From: an uncultured Gammaproteobacteria bacterium
GTDB lineage: Bacteria; Pseudomonadota; Gammaproteobacteria; JAADHQ01
Direction of reading: 5' to 3'
NCBI GenBank assembly: GCA_947258655.1
Contig: CAMYJD010000002.1
Coordinates: 62,001-126,000 of the forward strand
Length of the DNA stretch: 64,000 bases
Positions 47,888-63,374 of this stretch are shown here, in pieces. Every line of letters begins with the position of its first letter. Within the stretch, counting starts at the first letter, position 1. The notes below the pieces were generated by a model. The model did no database searches, was not told the origin of the DNA, and saw only the letters and a program-made list of their open reading frames with translations. Made by a program: the position numbers and the translations under genes.

Positions 47888-48476
47888 GTGATAATGGCCC
47901 TTCATGGGTTTGGGTTACCGCCTGCTCAAGCCATTACTCGAGACAGTCCAGGTGGGAACTGTTTTAATCGTTTTCGAGGCTTACCAAAAGAAGGAGTCCG
48001 CGAAGGGGGGGACACAGACTGGATAGTGTCAATTATGTGTTATCTACGAACAAGTATAACAGAAATAGTTGTGTATGGGCGATATTCACGCAGGTATCGG
48101 TTACATTTCGATCCTGGTCAGGATTGCAGGTATAGCTGTCTACGCCTTCCCTGTAGCTAGTAAGGTATATAGTGCCTGATAAGCGGTGTGAACAGGCGGA
48201 TATTGCAATGCCCTGTCAATAAAATCAATGCTTGTGAAGTTGGCGAATTTTAAACGGAAATATTATAGAAATAACCATTACGAGGCCTTGAAACGCATGT
48301 TCTTATGCCATATATTGAAAACTATGTAGTGTTTCAGGTGCAAAACCGGTTACAATACATCGCGCTACATTCTATCCTGGTTTTTATCGGTACTTTTCTT
48401 CAAGATAACTCCTGTTGATAACCTCGTAAGATTTGTAACACGTTCTTTTATATAAACTTTTGATGAGGTAATTATC
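47888..48476. other. divergent upstream region of rhlE and the cold-shock gene
   Basis: About 590 bases without a gene. The part nearest the cold-shock gene is probably its long leader, as is usual for csp mRNAs. No clear promoter pair could be assigned. Confidence 0.35.
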
Positions 48477-48677
48477 ATGGCGACAGGAACCGTTAAATGG
48501 TTTAACGAATCCAAGGGATTCGGTTTTATTTCACCTTCCGATGGCAGCAAGGACGTTTTTGTTCATTTTTCTGCTATTGCCAGCGAAGGCTTCCGCACCC
48601 TGGCCGAAGGTCAATCCGTCAGTTTCGATGTTGAGAATGGACCCAAGGGCCCGCAAGCGACGAACGTGCAGGTCTAA
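48477..48677 (+). CDS. CspA-family cold-shock protein
   Basis: 66 residues, one cold-shock domain: [17 protein letters not shown] (RNP1) and DVFVHFSAI (RNP2). Binds single-stranded RNA and melts secondary structure. GAGG lies nine bases before the ATG. A strong terminator follows at 48777-48813. Confidence 0.96.
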
Positions 48678-48776
48678 ATCCCTGGACGGATCGGTGCATG
48701 ACAGACAATAATTTTCTTTGAATATTTCAGAAAAATTTATATCAAGATTGCACCTGAACGTCTGTTCGTTTTTTCG

Positions 48777-55383: not shown

Positions 55384-55848
55384 ATGAAACTTTACCTCGT
55401 TCAACACGGTGAGGCCCTGAAAAAAGAAGTCGACCCCGAGCGTCCCCTGTCCGATCAGGGCAGCGCCGATATCGATCGACTGGCAGCATTGATGAAACAG
55501 GCAGGTATTCAGGTCAGCAGGGTGATACATAGCGGGAAGTTGCGCGCCAGACAAACAGCAGAACGACTTGCGCAGGCCATTGCCCCCGGTGTTGATCTGG
55601 AGGTCAGCGGTCTCATCAATCCCAACGATAATCCCGGCGCATTTGACTGGCAAAGCGAAAGCTGGGACAGGGATACACTCGTAGTTGGTCATTTGCCATT
55701 CATGGCCAAACTGGTTTCACATATGCTGGTTGCGGACGAAAACAGAGTCCTGATAGCCTTTCAGCCGGGTAGCATTGTTTGTGTGGAACAATACGACGAT
55801 GTGCATTGGCAGTTGAACTGGATGCTCGGACCTGAATTACTCATATAG
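55384..55848 (+). CDS. sixA: SixA-type phosphohistidine phosphatase
   Basis: 154 residues from ATG 55384, with AGAAGG upstream. The histidine-phosphatase RHG-type motif appears as LVQHGEA, and the second histidine in TLVVGHLPFM. SixA removes phosphate from histidine of HPt or PTS proteins. No kinase or PTS gene lies nearby. It is the first gene of the THUMP/PrimPol/kinase run. Confidence 0.88.
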   Translation: MKLYLVQHGEALKKEVDPERPLSDQGSADIDRLAALMKQAGIQVSRVIHSGKLRARQTAERLAQAIAPGVDLEVSGLINPNDNPGAFDWQSESWDRDTLVVGHLPFMAKLVSHMLVADENRVLIAFQPGSIVCVEQYDDVHWQLNWMLGPELLI

Positions 55849-55954
55849 ATAGGATATCTGTCACCTGGCTGGCGGCTGTCGATAATGAGCGATAGAGGAT
55901 AGTGGCACTAATGGGTAAATTGCACTGTAACCAGAGCCTGGAAGGCAACGTTTA

Positions 55955-56533
55955 GTGGCAAGCAGTATGAGTAGACGCTTAGCGGGGCATGACATGCATG
56001 ACTGGAATATCGTGGTTACGATCCATGCGGGCCATTTTAAACAGGCTATACAGTTCCTGCAGAGCTTCGGCATCACAGGCAGGACGGACTACTTCAATGT
56101 ACTGGTCATGAAGGTGGATGATCTTAGCCAGTTCCTCGAAGACATTAACAATGAGATTCTGGCTGCAGGCATGTTGAATGATATTTTTAGTCGCATCATG
56201 CCTGCATCCGTGACTTTTGATTTCCAGAGCGCGACTGAATTTGAAGCGCAATTGAAGCAGGCAGTGGAACCATGGCTGGCGCAACTTGCAGGCTGCAGCT
56301 TTCATGTACGCATGCACCGTCGAGGATTCAAGGGCCGTTTATCAAGTCAGGAGGAAGAGCGCTTGCTGGACCATTTTATCATGAGCAGACTCGATGAGCA
56401 GGGAGGCATTGGCAATATCGACTTCGATGATCCTGACTATATCATAGATATCGAAACCGTCAGTCAGAGGGCCGGCGTGTCCCTGTGGTCACGCACGCAA
56501 CGAATGCATTATGCGTTGCTGAAGCTCGACTAA
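55955..56533 (+). CDS. THUMP-domain (TAN1-like) protein
   Basis: 192 residues from a GTG with GGAAGG upstream; ATG 55967 is an alternative. The C-terminal half carries the THUMP-like signature FHVRMHRRGFKGRLSSQEEE and the DPDYIIDIETVSQRAGVSLW strand. THUMP domains bind tRNA acceptor ends; TAN1 aids tRNA acetylation. No catalytic domain is attached. It lies in one strand with PrimPol (10 bases on). Confidence 0.85.
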   Translation: MASSMSRRLAGHDMHDWNIVVTIHAGHFKQAIQFLQSFGITGRTDYFNVLVMKVDDLSQFLEDINNEILAAGMLNDIFSRIMPASVTFDFQSATEFEAQLKQAVEPWLAQLAGCSFHVRMHRRGFKGRLSSQEEERLLDHFIMSRLDEQGGIGNIDFDDPDYIIDIETVSQRAGVSLWSRTQRMHYALLKLD

Positions 56534-56543
56534 TTACACAACA

Positions 56544-57329
56544 ATGGTTTCTGCTAAATTTGAAAAGGCCGCACTCGCTTACCTCCAGCGCGGATGGTCG
56601 GTGATTCCGATGCGCAAGCGAGACAAGCGTCCTGCTATAAGCTGGCAGGGATTCCAGAGCGTACGCGCCAGCGAACAGCAGGTGCGGGATTGGTACCGAC
56701 GCTGGCCTGATGCCAATGTGGGCATCGTAACCGGCGTTATATCCGGCCTCGTCGTGCTGGATGTGGATACCCGGCATGGTGGTGATGACAGTCTGAAACG
56801 TCTTGAACTCGAAAACTCGCCACTACCACAGACGCTTGTGGTCATTAGCGGCGGTGGTGGACGTCATTATTATTTTGCTCATCCTGGCGGTAGCGTACGT
56901 AACCGGGTCGGGATTGCGCCAGGCATCGATCTGCGCGCTGATGGCGGCTGCATTGTCGCACCGCCATCGGTGCATCCCTGTGGCAGGGAATATCAATGGG
57001 TCAAGGATTGTGCGCCCGAGCAGGTTACATTGGCAGCGTTGCCAGACTGGCTGCGACAAATATTAGCCAAGACAGCGGAACACAGCAGCCATACGCTGGA
57101 TTATTGGCGTCAGCTGTTGCATGTAGGTGTTGAAACAGGTGAACGCAACAATACCATAGCCTCCATCAGTGGCCATTTGTTATGGCATGGGGTGGATCCG
57201 GATGTGGTCCTGGAATTGATGTTGTGCTGGAATCGTACCCGCTGCCGCCCAGCTCTGGATGATGCGGAAGTTGTGCGCACGGTGAACAGTATCACGCGTA
57301 TGCATGAACAACATGAGCAGGACATGTAA
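56544..57329 (+). CDS. stand-alone primase-polymerase (PrimPol) with PriCT
   Basis: 261 residues. Archaeo-eukaryotic primase fold: VLDVDTRHGG (DxD), the SGGGGRHYYF (sxH) motif and GIDLRADGGCIVAPPSVH (third acidic residue). A PriCT-1-like helical tail follows (NTIASISGHLLWHGV). All metal-site residues are intact. Such domains are normally fused to a helicase on plasmids, phages and other mobile elements; here there is no helicase and no other mobile gene, which is unusual. Confidence 0.88.
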   Translation: MVSAKFEKAALAYLQRGWSVIPMRKRDKRPAISWQGFQSVRASEQQVRDWYRRWPDANVGIVTGVISGLVVLDVDTRHGGDDSLKRLELENSPLPQTLVVISGGGGRHYYFAHPGGSVRNRVGIAPGIDLRADGGCIVAPPSVHPCGREYQWVKDCAPEQVTLAALPDWLRQILAKTAEHSSHTLDYWRQLLHVGVETGERNNTIASISGHLLWHGVDPDVVLELMLCWNRTRCRPALDDAEVVRTVNSITRMHEQHEQDM

Positions 57330-57468
57330 TTTCTGTTCGCTTCTGCAATTGCACAGGCAATAGAGGCTAGCATGGTCTGCCGATACTATTACGTTATAGG
57401 GATCTATAATGATTGCGAATGGATCATAAGCAGATTTTGATCGAGGCAATGAAACGGAAAAATATCAC
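57330..57468. other. gap between the PrimPol and DUF504 genes
   Basis: 139 bases without a gene. TATAAT at 57405-57410 could be a -10, but no -35 fits it. A separate promoter for the DUF504/kinase genes is possible. Confidence 0.3.
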
Positions 57469-57726
57469 ATGATCCCGATACATGAACTATTGAATCGTAT
57501 CCGCTGGGATAAGGATTATGGTGATGCTGAATTCGTTATCGGATATTATGATCGCATCGAGGAGCGGATAATTACTGTGCCACTAAAGTCGCTCTATTTT
57601 GATAGCGAAGATCATTTTGATTTCGAGTTGGTAGATGACGAGGGCGTCATTCATACGATTCCCTTACATCGCATCAGACAGGTATATCGTGACGGTGACC
57701 TGGTATGGGAACGCAAGCAGGGGTGA
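57469..57726 (+). CDS. DUF504 (MJ1316-like) protein
   Basis: 85 residues: MIPIHELLNRIRWDKDYGDA, IGYYDRIEERIITVPL and the C-terminal HTIPLHRIRQVYRDGDLVWER define DUF504. The MJ1316 form of this domain is predicted in RNA repair and is fused to RNA-active enzymes in other organisms. Here it stands alone and precedes the kinase/nuclease fusion by 10 bases. Direct function unproven. Confidence 0.9.
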   Translation: MIPIHELLNRIRWDKDYGDAEFVIGYYDRIEERIITVPLKSLYFDSEDHFDFELVDDEGVIHTIPLHRIRQVYRDGDLVWERKQG

Positions 57727-57736
57727 TTCCGGTGGC

Positions 57737-59767
57737 ATGGCTCCGTATTCTGTTATGAATTCAATAAGACGACAACATGGTTTTCCGTTACTGAGCGCCA
57801 ATGTCGCGGATATTGTTGCGACGGTATTGCAACAGGATCAGCGTGTACTACTGTACGGTGCAGCCGGTACAGGTAAGTCTACGCTGGCAACAAGTATGGC
57901 GCAGCACCTGGCACAGGAAAATCGCCGCTGTAGTTGTATCAGTGCCGACCCGGGATCGCCACTAATGGGCATGCCGGGTACACTGTCACTGGGGCAATGG
58001 GTGCAGGACGCATGGCACATAGAAGAATATTCACCCCTGTGCACCCTCGATGCGGGTCGCTTCCGTTTACCATTGGTAGCGGCATTGGGGCACTTGTTGG
58101 ATCACGCCAGGGACGGCGTGATATTGGTTGACGGACCCGGTGTCGTTCGTGGTGTGGCCGGGCGTGAATTGCTTGAAGGTCTGGTGTCGGTGGTCAAGGC
58201 TGATGTGGTACTGGTGGTCTCGATAACAGATAAAATCCCACCGCTGCTGGCAGAATTGAATGCCCTGGCGTCGGCAATAGCTGCAGAGATCTATATCGTA
58301 CCGGCCGCGGCAGCAGCCATGCGCCCGGGCAAACGGGTGCGCGCGCGACGACGCACCGAACAGTGGGACCAATACCTGGGCGATCGCATCAGGCAGGATG
58401 TTGATCTTGAAAAAGTCAGTATCATCGGCACGCCACCACCGCGAGAGCAGGCGCATGCCTGGACAGGCAGGCAGGTCGCATTGCTGCATTCGCAACATAC
58501 CCGGGTCATGGGCGAGGTGCTACAACTCAAGGGAAACTGTCTGACGCTGATACTGCCTGCCCGTGTCAGTGATACAGATGCGCTGTTAATCCGTGATGCA
58601 GTACGCACGGCTGACGGCTACGTGGAAACGGCCATGCCCTGGGCTGCAGCGCAACTTGGCTATATACCGCCGGCAGATGTGTTGCCATCTGCCGCAGGCA
58701 GTAGCGGGCCACGTCTGGTAGGGCGGGTCGGAAACGTCGATGTGGCCATGATCAACGGAGTGTTTGGTGATCCGTTGTTACACATACGCCTGCGTCATCA
58801 GCGGCGCAGCCTGTTGTTCGATCTGGGTAGCGGCGAACGCTTGTCTGCGCGTATTGCCCATCAGGTGAGCGATGTATTTATCTCCCACGCACATCTTGAC
58901 CACATCAGCGGATTTGTGTGGCTGCTGCGTTCACGTATTGGTGAATTCCCTGCTTGCCGTTTATATGGCCCGCCTGGGCTGGCGCGACATATCGCAGGTT
59001 TTATACAAGGTGTGTTGTGGGATCGCGTAACTGTTCCCGGCCCGGAATTCGAGGTCCACGAGTATGACGGCAATATCCTACGCAGTTTTCTGCTGCAGGC
59101 GACCCGGCCGGAGCCGGAGTTGTTACACGAGCAATCTGTGACAGATGGTATCTTGCGTCAGGAATCCGGATTTACGATACGCGCGGTATTGCTGGATCAT
59201 TGCGGTACCGAGGTCGTGGCATACGCCTTTGAACCTGATCAGCAGATCAATGTGCGCAAGGACCGTCTCTTGGCGAGGGGATTGCAACCGGGTGCCTGGC
59301 TGAATGAATTAAAGCAGTATGTGGCAAGCGCAAACGACAGCACCAGGATTCGCCTGCCTGACGGCAGCGACGCGTCGGTGGCAGAACTGGCAAGCGAGCT
59401 ATTGCTGATCAGTGCAGGTAAAAAGTTGGTGTATGCCACTGATCTGGCCGACACGCAGAATAATCGCCAGCGTCTTGTTGACCTCGCCCGTAACGCACAT
59501 ACGTTTTTCTGTGAGGCAGCGTTTGCCGAGGCAGAGGCCGACAACGCCTTACGCAATGGTCATTTAACAACACGTGCCTGTGGTGAAATTGCAGTGCTGG
59601 CCGGTGTCGGTCGACTGGTGCCGTTTCATTTCTCACGGCGCTATACGGAAGATCCGTTGCAGATTTATCATGAACTGAAAACGGTCTGCCCTTGCGTTAT
59701 GATACCAATGTCAGCGCAACTATTCGAGACGAGCCGCGTAATACCTGACGATGCAGAAATCGTATAG
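57737..59767 (+). CDS. Clp1-type polynucleotide kinase fused to RNase Z-type metallo-beta-lactamase
   Basis: 676 residues from ATG 57737. Residues ~1-200 form a Clp1_P kinase: Walker A LYGAAGTGKSTLAT (residues 41-49), then SADPGSPLMGMPGTLSLG and VDGPGVVRGVAGRELLEG. From residue ~335 an RNase Z-type metallo-beta-lactamase follows: SHAHLDHISG (384-389), YATDLADT (D569), GHLTTRACGE (H609) and PFHFSRRY (H631), the RNase Z order. It should bind two zinc ions. Clp1 kinases add phosphate to RNA 5'-OH ends; RNase Z cuts tRNA 3' trailers. The union suggests that one protein handles both ends of an RNA. Confidence 0.85.
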   Translation: MAPYSVMNSIRRQHGFPLLSANVADIVATVLQQDQRVLLYGAAGTGKSTLATSMAQHLAQENRRCSCISADPGSPLMGMPGTLSLGQWVQDAWHIEEYSPLCTLDAGRFRLPLVAALGHLLDHARDGVILVDGPGVVRGVAGRELLEGLVSVVKADVVLVVSITDKIPPLLAELNALASAIAAEIYIVPAAAAAMRPGKRVRARRRTEQWDQYLGDRIRQDVDLEKVSIIGTPPPREQAHAWTGRQVALLHSQHTRVMGEVLQLKGNCLTLILPARVSDTDALLIRDAVRTADGYVETAMPWAAAQLGYIPPADVLPSAAGSSGPRLVGRVGNVDVAMINGVFGDPLLHIRLRHQRRSLLFDLGSGERLSARIAHQVSDVFISHAHLDHISGFVWLLRSRIGEFPACRLYGPPGLARHIAGFIQGVLWDRVTVPGPEFEVHEYDGNILRSFLLQATRPEPELLHEQSVTDGILRQESGFTIRAVLLDHCGTEVVAYAFEPDQQINVRKDRLLARGLQPGAWLNELKQYVASANDSTRIRLPDGSDASVAELASELLLISAGKKLVYATDLADTQNNRQRLVDLARNAHTFFCEAAFAEAEADNALRNGHLTTRACGEIAVLAGVGRLVPFHFSRRYTEDPLQIYHELKTVCPCVMIPMSAQLFETSRVIPDDAEIV

Positions 59768-59802
59768 TTCCGGACAGAGTGTTCATCTCAGGGGAAATGG
59801 TC

Positions 59803-60633
59803 ATGTGCGATGATGAATGTGTAAAGTTTCTGCAGTGGGCCTTACCGCAACTTCATATGCAATGGCCGGGTTTCCGTAAGGTGCGAGCCCAGGTATGCAA
59901 GCGCATTGCCCGGCGCATCAAGCATCTGCAGTTGGCAGACATTACTGAATACCGTGGTTTTGTGCATAAACACGCACAGGAATGGGATGTTCTGGATAGT
60001 CTGTGTCAGGTGACGATTTCACGCTTCTATCGTGACAAGCTGATGTTTGCATTTCTGGCCCGTGAGGTTCTGCCAAGCCTGGCACAACAGGCGCTTGCAC
60101 AGGGCAGGGATTATTTGAATGTCTGGAGTGTGGGTTGTGGTTCCGGCGAGGAGCCCTATTCGATGGTGTTGCTGTGGCAATTGCAATTACAGGTACAGTT
60201 TACCGGGATGCATATGCGTATTACTGCGACCGATGCCAATCCTGAATTGCTTCAGCGTGTTACCGAGGCCTGTTATCCCTATGCCAGTATCAAAAATCTA
60301 CCCCAGGAATGGCGTAATGCGGCATTTAGCATTCATGCAGATCAGTATTGCCTAAAGCCTGATTACCGACATAAGCTCAGGCTCCTGCAACAGGATGTGC
60401 GTGAAGCGATGCCTGAGGAAACATTCGATCTGGTATTATGCCGCAATCTGGTATTTACCTATTATGATGATGATTTGCAACGTACCATTCTGCAACGCTT
60501 GCAGGCGCTGTTAAGACCGGGTGCTGCGCTGGTAATCGGGATCCATGAACATCTGCCGGCCGGGACGAGCGGATTTACGGAGTGGTCAGGTAAAATGAGA
60601 ATCTACCGGAAAAGCATCTCTGCCAGTGAGTGA
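59803..60633 (+). CDS. CheR-type SAM methyltransferase
   Basis: 276 residues from ATG 59803 with AGGGGA seven bases upstream (GTG 59779 and ATG 59797 are weaker). An N-terminal helical part, then VTISRFYRDKLMF, the SAM site VWSVGCGSGEEPYSM and LVLCRNLVFTYYDDDLQ. This is the CheR fold, but the usual N-terminal RxxF region is altered (VTISRFYRD). No chemotaxis gene lies nearby, so the substrate may not be a chemoreceptor. Confidence 0.85.
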   Translation: MCDDECVKFLQWALPQLHMQWPGFRKVRAQVCKRIARRIKHLQLADITEYRGFVHKHAQEWDVLDSLCQVTISRFYRDKLMFAFLAREVLPSLAQQALAQGRDYLNVWSVGCGSGEEPYSMVLLWQLQLQVQFTGMHMRITATDANPELLQRVTEACYPYASIKNLPQEWRNAAFSIHADQYCLKPDYRHKLRLLQQDVREAMPEETFDLVLCRNLVFTYYDDDLQRTILQRLQALLRPGAALVIGIHEHLPAGTSGFTEWSGKMRIYRKSISASE

Positions 60634-60676: not shown

Positions 60677-61147
60677 TTATTTCTCGAAGGTTCCCATTAG
60701 TTGCGCCTGAGCGATGACATGTCCCTGCATGGCAGCCTCTACCTCGGCCTTGGCCGGTGTGGCCAGGCCGTCAAGCATACTATCCAAGGCATATAGTTTG
60801 AAAAAATAGCGATGGCGCCCAATCGGCGGACAGGGGCCACGATAACCACTGTGCTGCCAGTCATTGAGTCCTTCGCCTGTACCCGCAGGCAGTGTCGCAC
60901 TCGTACAGTGCGCGGGCAGAGCATTGATATCTGTCGGAATGTTGTATAGTACCCAGTGCACCCAGGTCATTTTCGGCGCCTTTGGGTCTGGCGCATCCGG
61001 ATCATCTACAATCAGCACCAGGCTCTGCGTATCTTCGGGAATGTTGTTCCATGTCAGTGGTGGTGAAATGTCATCTCCCTGGCAGGTATATATTGATGGA
61101 ATTTCACCTTCATGTTCAAAAACACTGGATTTCAGTATCAAAGACAT
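60677..61147 (-). CDS. YbhB/YbcL-type PEBP protein
   Basis: 156 residues. DDISPPLTWNNIPEDTQSLVLIVDDPDAPD and WVHWVLYNIP are the two hallmark strands, with YRGPCPPIGRHRYFFKLYALD following. It is a phosphatidylethanolamine-binding-type fold; bacterial members have no clear role. No signal peptide. It converges on the CheR gene. Confidence 0.93.
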   Translation of the reverse strand: MSLILKSSVFEHEGEIPSIYTCQGDDISPPLTWNNIPEDTQSLVLIVDDPDAPDPKAPKMTWVHWVLYNIPTDINALPAHCTSATLPAGTGEGLNDWQHSGYRGPCPPIGRHRYFFKLYALDSMLDGLATPAKAEVEAAMQGHVIAQAQLMGTFEK

Positions 61148-61442: not shown

Positions 61443-63374
61443 ATGATGTTCACATATAAAGACATACTGGGCCAGGATGTGATCAAAAACTGTTTATTGA
61501 TGCTCTTTATCCTGTTTTACCCAGCCTTTGCCGTGGCCCAGAATCCTGATTTGCGTCTAATCTATTCATCTGACTTTCAGGGTGAACTGAAACCCTGTGG
61601 TTGTAGTGAGGCCGGTAATCTGGGTGGTGTTCTGCGTCGGGCGACGAAATTCGAAGCACTCAGACAGGCGGATATAGAAACGCTGTTTGTTAGTGCCGGC
61701 GATATTCTCGGGCCGGTAGACGAGCAGGGCGATATAAAAAACCGTTACATGCTGAAGGCCCATGGCTACCTTGGTCTGGATGCTCTGTTGCCAGGTGAAA
61801 GAGATCTGCTTTACCCGCCTGATGTATTGTCCAGCTATGGTCTGCCGTGGCTACTGACCAATGGTGTCGATACATCGCCTTTTCCCAGGCATCGATCCAG
61901 AAATTTAGGTTCGGGCCAGCGCGTGTTGTTGCTGGGGTTGCTAGATCCGGGTATGCAAGCCAGGGCCGATAAAAAATGGCTGACTGAACCCGGCAAGGCC
62001 CTGGAACATGAATTGGCAAAGGTAAAGGCAAGTAAAGCCGATGTTGTCATTCTAATGTTGCATGGAAAGCCGGAGTTTGCGCAGCGCTTTCGCAGACATG
62101 CGCTGATTGATGTGATTGTCCGTGGTCATCTGGATGAACCCGTCAGCACTGCGCCGACATCGCCTATCCCGCCGATACTCGCAGCAGGCCACCGTGGCCA
62201 ACGTATCGGTATCGCGAATCTGCAAATTACCGGAAGTACACGTGTTATCGATAATAAAATAATCCCGTTGCCATCGAGTATAAAGGATCATGCCGGACTT
62301 GCCGGGCTTTATCAGCAATACAATCGTGATATTGCCGCCTGGTACAGGATAAAAACGCAACAGATGAAAGGGGCCGCGGACATGTCCGGCCCGTATGCCG
62401 GCGCAGCGATTTGCCAGCAATGCCATCAGGACATACATGCTCAGTGGCAGGGCAGCCGGCATGCCCATGCCCTGGAAAGCCTTGTCAAAGAGAATAAGGA
62501 TGCTGATCCCGAATGCCTGTTATGTCACAACACGGGTATGGGAACTGCAGGCGGATTCATATCTCCGGTAATCACGCCCGACCATACAGATGTTCAATGC
62601 GAGGCCTGCCATGGTGCTGCGCGTAAACATGCCGAATATCCCTTACAGAACAAGGCCGGGGCAGCGCTTGGTCTGTGTACTACCTGTCATACCCGTGAAA
62701 CCAGTCCCGCATTCAAGCTTTCCGAATATTTCCCGAAAATAGCACATGCCAGCAAGCAAGCTGCACCGATCCACAGGCAGTCCGTATCTGCTATTACGGG
62801 TTTGTATGACGTTCTAGAGTCAGAACGGGCCATTATTGATACTGATGCCGTGGTCTTAACTGAATTTTTTAATTTTTATTGCAGCCGTTGTTATGTTTTC
62901 AGTACCAGCTGGTCAGAGCAGTCCAAGACCTTGCCAAAACAGGTCAGGCATCGGCAGATACCGATTATTTTCGGCGATTCACAACAGCCCTGGGCTGCAT
63001 TGGCCTACCTGGTCGCAGAACAACACGGTAAAGGGGATGTGCTCAAGGATGCCATTTTCAAGGCCAGGTTTGAACATAATGCCGATATTGGGCAGAGACA
63101 GGTCATCATCGATATCGCCGGGCAATTCAATCTGGCTTCACAGGTAAGGGATGCTTTATATAACGATGATAGCGGCATCGAAAAAAAGTTTGCCCAGGGC
63201 ATGCAGTTGAAGCATCAATACGATATACATGTTACGCCAACGATTATGATCAATGACAACCTGCGCGTGTTGCCGAAGCACACCGGCAACAACACCAATC
63301 TGATGGTAGATAACCTTGTTGAAATCCTGCTTGACATCCAATGCCGCCAATATGCACTTTGCGCAGCCAAATGA
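61443..63374 (+). CDS. exported metallophosphoesterase-tetraheme-DsbA-like fusion
   Basis: 643 residues. Signal peptide (LLMLFILFYPAFAVAQ). Residues ~35-280 resemble a 5'-nucleotidase/calcineurin phosphoesterase (YSSDFQGELKPCGCSEAGNLGG, SAGDILGP, DVVILMLHGKPEF). Residues ~320-430 have four CxxCH haem sites: CQQCH, CLLCH, CEACH and CTTCH, in cytochrome c554 style. The end is DsbA-like, with YCSRCYVFS in place of CPHC and VTPTIMIN as the cis-proline loop. The substrate is unknown; a periplasmic sulphur or nitrogen redox step is possible. Confidence 0.82.
   Translation: MMFTYKDILGQDVIKNCLLMLFILFYPAFAVAQNPDLRLIYSSDFQGELKPCGCSEAGNLGGVLRRATKFEALRQADIETLFVSAGDILGPVDEQGDIKNRYMLKAHGYLGLDALLPGERDLLYPPDVLSSYGLPWLLTNGVDTSPFPRHRSRNLGSGQRVLLLGLLDPGMQARADKKWLTEPGKALEHELAKVKASKADVVILMLHGKPEFAQRFRRHALIDVIVRGHLDEPVSTAPTSPIPPILAAGHRGQRIGIANLQITGSTRVIDNKIIPLPSSIKDHAGLAGLYQQYNRDIAAWYRIKTQQMKGAADMSGPYAGAAICQQCHQDIHAQWQGSRHAHALESLVKENKDADPECLLCHNTGMGTAGGFISPVITPDHTDVQCEACHGAARKHAEYPLQNKAGAALGLCTTCHTRETSPAFKLSEYFPKIAHASKQAAPIHRQSVSAITGLYDVLESERAIIDTDAVVLTEFFNFYCSRCYVFSTSWSEQSKTLPKQVRHRQIPIIFGDSQQPWAALAYLVAEQHGKGDVLKDAIFKARFEHNADIGQRQVIIDIAGQFNLASQVRDALYNDDSGIEKKFAQGMQLKHQYDIHVTPTIMINDNLRVLPKHTGNNTNLMVDNLVEILLDIQCRQYALCAAK

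Follow-up and report, generated by a model that had tools for sequence, protein, structure and literature searches.

Introduction

The closest described system to the locus studied here is bacterial RNA repair by the Rtc proteins. RtcB ligates cyclic or 3'-phosphate ends to 5'-OH ends (PMC3973293), and the rtc operon of Salmonella is switched on by tRNA halves with cyclic ends (Hughes et al., PMC7790460). The 5'-OH kinase Clp1 occurs in 0.9% of bacteria according to a survey whose text makes no mention of RNase Z or lactamase (PMC6777427), and the MJ1316 domain (DUF504) is described, as a prediction, as recognising RNA 2',3'-cyclic ends in a further paper (PMC6514570). Here we analyse a row of six plus-strand genes encoding a SixA phosphatase, a stand-alone THUMP protein, a small PrimPol, a DUF504 protein, a fusion of a CLP1-type kinase to an RNase Z and a CheR-type methyltransferase. 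The row lies in a stretch of 64,000 nucleotides (the window; G000:C2:62001-126000, contig CAMYJD010000002.1) from an uncultured Gammaproteobacteria bacterium, whose assembly comprises 3.48 Mb in 92 contigs. We propose that the THUMP, PrimPol, DUF504, fusion and CheR proteins are probably satellites of Rtc RNA repair, gathered here without RtcA and archease-RtcB.

Row families adjoin Rtc genes in other genomes

We compared the row with a sample of 369 genomes of the same class (G handles) and with gene loci (L handles) that include the named fusion loci, the best 80 of at least 386 candidate fusion stretches in genome_contigs. Five of the six families (THUMP, PrimPol, DUF504, fusion and CheR) adjoin rtcA or archease-rtcB elsewhere. 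Counted in class-sample genomes that carry both members of a pair, with the genome of the row left out, 25 gene pairs lie within 5 kb against 0.52 expected, pairs within one cluster not being independent; they are spread over 15 genomes and 14 families. As a control, the 54 other open reading frames (ORFs) of the window recur about 7 times in all near 107 anchor loci.

The arrangements vary from genome to genome. THUMP-RtcA is found in G086 and in G124, where DUF504 follows 0.8 kb further, and THUMP-RtcA-archease-RtcB in G054; in these three genomes THUMP and RtcA share a strand with less than 40 bp between match ends. G022 carries RtcB-archease-THUMP with a divergent CheR. PrimPol stands directly before RtcA in G286, overlapping it, and G095 has PrimPol-RtcA-DUF504. 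RtcA adjoins DUF504 in G134, G242 and G337, DUF504-archease-RtcB occurs in G250, and 7 of the 18 DUF504 genes found elsewhere in the class sample are within 5 kb of RtcA or RtcB. CheR lies beside RtcA in G207 and G338, and ends the order RtcB-CBS-HPF-DUF504-DUF6763-CheR in G101.

For the fusion, an unbiased tally of the genes recurring beside it pointed to RtcA. The fusion lies beside RtcA or RtcB in 7 of the best 80 loci, five with RtcA (RtcA-fusion in L121 and L128, RtcA-THUMP-fusion in L122, fusion-RtcA in L129 and a divergent pair in L127) and two with archease-RtcB upstream (archease-RtcB-fusion in L140, archease-RtcB-PolX-fusion in L144). In G047, RtcA and the fusion are about 30 bp apart on the same strand.

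Presence and absence across genomes show the same association. RtcB is found in 22 of 22 satellite carriers and 13 of 15 fusion carriers but in 6 of 15 non-carriers (p=4e-5 and 0.01), the non-carriers being a small, non-random set of low-numbered handles and the p-values ignoring shared ancestry and lifestyle. Full-length RtcA is present in 13/22, 7/15 and 0/15, respectively. DUF504 occurs together with the fusion or PRK02126 in 11 genomes compared with 1.6 expected (p=8e-9). The genome of the row has RtcA (G000:C1:81748) and archease-RtcB (G000:C1:279.2-281.1 kb), both on contig C1, whereas the row is on C2; the genes therefore do not form a single Rtc locus. At the thresholds used, the sister genomes G001 and G003 show no RtcB, DUF504, fusion, THUMP, PrimPol or CheR, and G003 and G004 have partial RtcA-type matches only. 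The row genes are rare and patchily spread.

The original prediction, an RNA end-processing or repair cluster, was to be judged by conservation of the six-gene order, especially DUF504 next to the fusion. This order is absent from the best 80 fusion loci and from the class sample, and we reject it. Neither DUF504 nor PrimPol is near the fusion in any of the best 80 loci, where THUMP, SixA, CheR and YbhB each occur near it twice (SixA directly beside it in L123 and L138); DUF504 adjoins the fusion in the window alone, and G039, G337 and G360 carry both on separate contigs. That the neighbours differ in all related genomes, the outcome named in advance as refuting the idea, is thus nearly what we observe, yet the association returns one step off, through Rtc. 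The repair idea failed its own test and regains support from the adjacency to rtcA, rtcB and archease and from co-occurrence.

The fusion itself is found in about 15 of the 369 class genomes, with full-length copies 47-58% identical. Its homologues are widespread and mostly proteobacterial; carriers among the best 80 include Chromatiales, Methylobacter, Halomonas, Nitrosomonas, Zetaproteobacteria, Desulfobacterota and Nitrospinota.

Folds and active sites of the row proteins

Profile searches identify the kinase half of the fusion as CLP1_P (PF16575, 55.9 bits) and the nuclease half as a metallo-beta-lactamase of the RNase Z type (PF12706, 42.8 bits). Residues 369-686 score 265 bits against PRK02126, under its cut-off of 315, and the protein reaches 96 bits against the RNase Z equivalog TIGR02651, whose cut-off is 293. 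The AlphaFold2 model (pLDDT 86, pTM 0.58) matches RNase Z-tRNA complexes with a template-modelling (TM) score of 0.76 by target and aligns with Clp1 across about 300 columns at a TM score of 0.54 by target (Foldseek); the kinase half also carries a Clp1-like C-terminal domain.

We scored active-site conservation in 36 orthologues. The kinase residues of Walker A (G35xxGxGK41), the catalytic D65, D126 and the RxxxR lid (R196/R200) are invariant, as are H378, H380, D382, H383, H482, D563, E587, H603 and H625 of the RNase Z half, so that the HxHxDH motif, the further His/Asp ligands and the HEAT-type E/H pair are all present. A split counterpart of the fusion occurs in G174, where a Clp1 gene that retains the DVGQ motif intact is located 79 bp directly upstream of a PRK02126-type RNase Z gene.

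Among the other proteins, the THUMP protein scores 19.1 bits against PF02926, slightly below the Pfam cut-off of 20.6. A sequence search of the PDB with the THUMP and DUF504 profiles found no relatives, and the THUMP identity is therefore settled by fold: at E<=0.001 the AlphaFold2 model (pLDDT 86) has 23 matching PDB chains, each a THUMP-containing RNA-modifying enzyme, among them ThiI, Trm14, TrmN and CDAT8. The protein is likely a tRNA-binding adaptor. The DUF504 match far exceeds its gathering score of 26.3, the PrimPol has no helicase part, and the CheR protein matches a PDB CheR at E=8e-38 and has the S-adenosylmethionine (SAM)-binding CheR fold and motif. SixA is the weakest member of the row and its tie to the group is doubtful.

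Coordinates and surroundings of the row

The six closely spaced plus-strand genes and their family names, as originally predicted, are borne out by these profile searches and, for THUMP, by the fold (Table 1). The gaps are 10 bp for THUMP-PrimPol, 139 bp for PrimPol-DUF504 and 10-28 bp for DUF504-fusion. The ATG at 55994 is the more likely start of THUMP; for CheR the ATG at 59803 is more likely, matching where the sequences of its relatives begin.

Table 1. Genes of the row and its convergent neighbour (window positions).
Feature	Positions	Strand	Basis and remarks
SixA phosphohistidine phosphatase	55384..55848	+	TIGR00249 104.7 bits, cut-off 74.5
Stand-alone THUMP protein	55994..56533	+	PF02926 and fold; ORF open from 55955
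Small PrimPol (AEP primase-polymerase core and PriCT_1)	56544..57329	+	PF09250 160 bits; PF08708 42 bits
DUF504/MJ1316 domain protein	57469..57726	+	PF04457 89.6 bits
CLP1-type polynucleotide kinase-RNase Z fusion	57737..59767	+	PF16575, PRK02126; alternative start 57755
CheR-type SAM methyltransferase	59803..60633	+	PF01739 126 bits; ORF listed from GTG 59779
YbhB/YbcL (PEBP) protein, convergent to the row	60677..61147	-	PF01161 154 bits

Near the row and near RtcA and RtcB of the same genome we found no convincing non-coding RNA of the tRNA-like or Y RNA kind. Promoters and terminators of the row show no clear excess over shuffled sequences, and its base composition has no sharp island signature. 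Elsewhere in the window, positions 48311-48740 match the cspA thermoregulator RNA below threshold (54.6 bits, cut-off 78, E 3.7e-11), and positions 61443-63374 encode a single chain with UshA-like, multihaem cytochrome c554-type and DsbA-like thioredoxin parts.

Several further genes recur in these neighbourhoods. YbhB/YbcL is the most recurrent ordinary neighbour, near the fusion, DUF504 or CheR in 7 of the 107 loci. A ribosome-hibernation (S30AE) protein fused to a cold-shock domain recurs beside rtcA, rtcB, DUF504 or CheR, often with a CBS-domain gene (L219, which is G000:C1:80.3-82.7 kb in the genome of the row, L085, L226, L234 and L292). DUF6763 directly precedes the fusion in two genomes and is near RtcA, RtcB or CheR in others (L125:9656-9961, L034:2193-2486, L085:3264-3569, L086:7537-7836), making it a further candidate partner. 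HHH/PolX-type genes lie between RtcB and the fusion or beside either (L144:8262-9986, L178, L153, L156, L122), and one adjoins RtcB in L228 (G313). In Nitrosomonas sp. Nm33 the fusion has a divergently oriented macro-domain gene as its neighbour (L130:9077-9616), and Nm132 (L133) carries a homologue upstream of its fusion at a distance of about 3.2 kb.

Proposed roles and alternative explanations

The catalytic steps and substrates that we infer for the row proteins would fit together as follows. Nucleases or stress would cut tRNAs, leaving 2',3'-cyclic-phosphate and 5'-OH ends. RtcA maintains the cyclic 3' ends and archease-RtcB seals them, roles established for these families. Going by their domains, DUF504 would recognise cyclic ends and presentation of the tRNA would fall to the THUMP protein. 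An end or a partner protein would be the methylation target of CheR, and PrimPol would lengthen an end. The fusion would take those ends that RtcB is unable to seal or ought to leave unsealed: phosphorylation of the 5'-OH by its kinase half would block sealing by RtcB and divert the fragment elsewhere, and its RNase Z half would cut at the discriminator base, allowing CCA to be restored. We offer this division of labour tentatively.

The role proposed for the fusion stems from a conflict. Because RtcB needs 5'-OH ends, an active 5' kinase in the fusion would work against it, and we therefore suggest that, instead of supplying RtcB, the fusion may deal with ends that ought to stay unsealed or may reset the 3' ends of tRNAs. 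It is possible, though we would not favour it yet, that the fusion is a bifunctional tRNA end-healing enzyme competing with RtcB over the fate of broken tRNAs, with 5' phosphorylation pitted against ligation and 3' ends reset to the discriminator base, and that, together with DUF504, THUMP, PrimPol and CheR, it represents an undescribed, dispersed branch of repair.

Several observations weigh against a connection to Rtc, in addition to the makeup of the non-carrier set. A 5' kinase alongside a ligase that requires 5'-OH ends is paradoxical. The linkage of the fusion to Rtc genes is confined to just those 7 of the best 80 loci, and not one of the 14 stand-alone PRK02126 RNase Z genes has an Rtc gene within 5 kb. 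The glutamine of the Clp1 DxGQ motif ([D/E]hhQ) is replaced in the fusions (S in 29/36, otherwise M, L, A or T), and the kinase activity may for this reason have been lost; the P-loop half may do no more than bind nucleotide or RNA. Finally, these neighbourhoods repeatedly contain YbhB, HPF-cold-shock, CBS and DUF6763 genes and could therefore be loose groupings of stress genes.

This last point leads to the alternative that fares best, namely that Rtc, hibernation, CBS and YbhB genes and these six have been shuffled together in a loose stress-gene neighbourhood in which the fusion is a housekeeping RNase Z. No gene in the 26 genomes searched reaches the RNase Z equivalog cut-off, the top RNase Z match in the genome of the row is the fusion, and the fusion or the PRK02126 type may therefore be the working RNase Z; in Halomonas the fusion is near carA-carB. 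The operon-like, same-strand spacing of THUMP, PrimPol and fusion genes with RtcA and the presence of RtcB in every satellite carrier argue against such shuffling, and we consider it rather unlikely. More improbable is that the row chiefly reverses tRNA cleavage by toxins or in phage attack. The patchy spread with sister species lacking these genes would agree with a role in conflict, and one paper ties Rtc and MJ1316 domains to the repair of conflict-related RNA damage (PMC6514570); however, the cluster shows no toxin, phage or plasmid gene, none of 72,556 plasmids carries a full-length fusion, and most carriers with a name are free-living or symbiotic lithotrophs, methanotrophs and halophiles. 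That unrelated genes came together by chance, as raised in the original prediction, has in its favour that the exact order is found nowhere else and is very hard to reconcile with rare genes that co-occur and share linkage to a common Rtc hub far above chance.

If these five families are indeed satellites of Rtc repair, the bacterial system would extend beyond its ligase and cyclase to a wider set of tools, including a kinase-nuclease of its own and parts that recognise ends, bind tRNA, methylate and polymerise. The testable question that this raises is why a 5'-RNA kinase travels with a 5'-OH-requiring ligase, and cultured carriers are available in Methylobacter, Halomonas and Nitrosomonas.

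Comparison with known RNA repair systems

The 2016 review by Burroughs and Aravind, cited in PMC6514570, reportedly assigns the MJ1316/DUF504 domain to RNA cyclic group end recognition. Our literature search, which lay outside that review, found no account joining Clp1, RNase Z and RtcA/B in bacteria; that review may already cover some of the partners, DUF504 in particular. The DUF504 protein of the row is a clear member of the MJ1316/DUF504 family, which adjoins RtcA in several genomes, and differs in being stand-alone and bacterial. Similarly, the THUMP protein resembles stand-alone adaptors of the THUMPD1/Tan1 type in having the THUMP fold and no catalytic domain. Unlike these, it is bacterial and belongs to a family found in rtc gene rows, where the repair machinery would serve as its enzyme partner.

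The fusion resembles the Clp1/Nol9/Grc3 5'-OH kinases, including the bacterial Ts-Clp1 (PMC6777427), in its Walker A, catalytic Asp and RxxxR lid and in a fold that matches outside the kinase core as well, but is joined to RNase Z and has another residue in place of the DxGQ glutamine. With RNase Z/ElaC (TIGR02651; B. subtilis, PDB 2fk6) it shares all metal-binding and HEAT-type residues, and its PGPWLxELK stretch aligns with a PGP-containing stretch of the B. subtilis enzyme; it differs in scoring below the equivalog cut-off, in belonging to the PRK02126 branch and in its attached N-terminal kinase. As for bacterial Rtc repair (PMC7790460, PMC3973293), the row lacks RtcA and RtcB, whereas its families adjoin rtcA, rtcB and archease elsewhere and its own genome has all three; the descriptions of Rtc consulted include no CLP1-RNase Z fusion and no THUMP, PrimPol or CheR partners.

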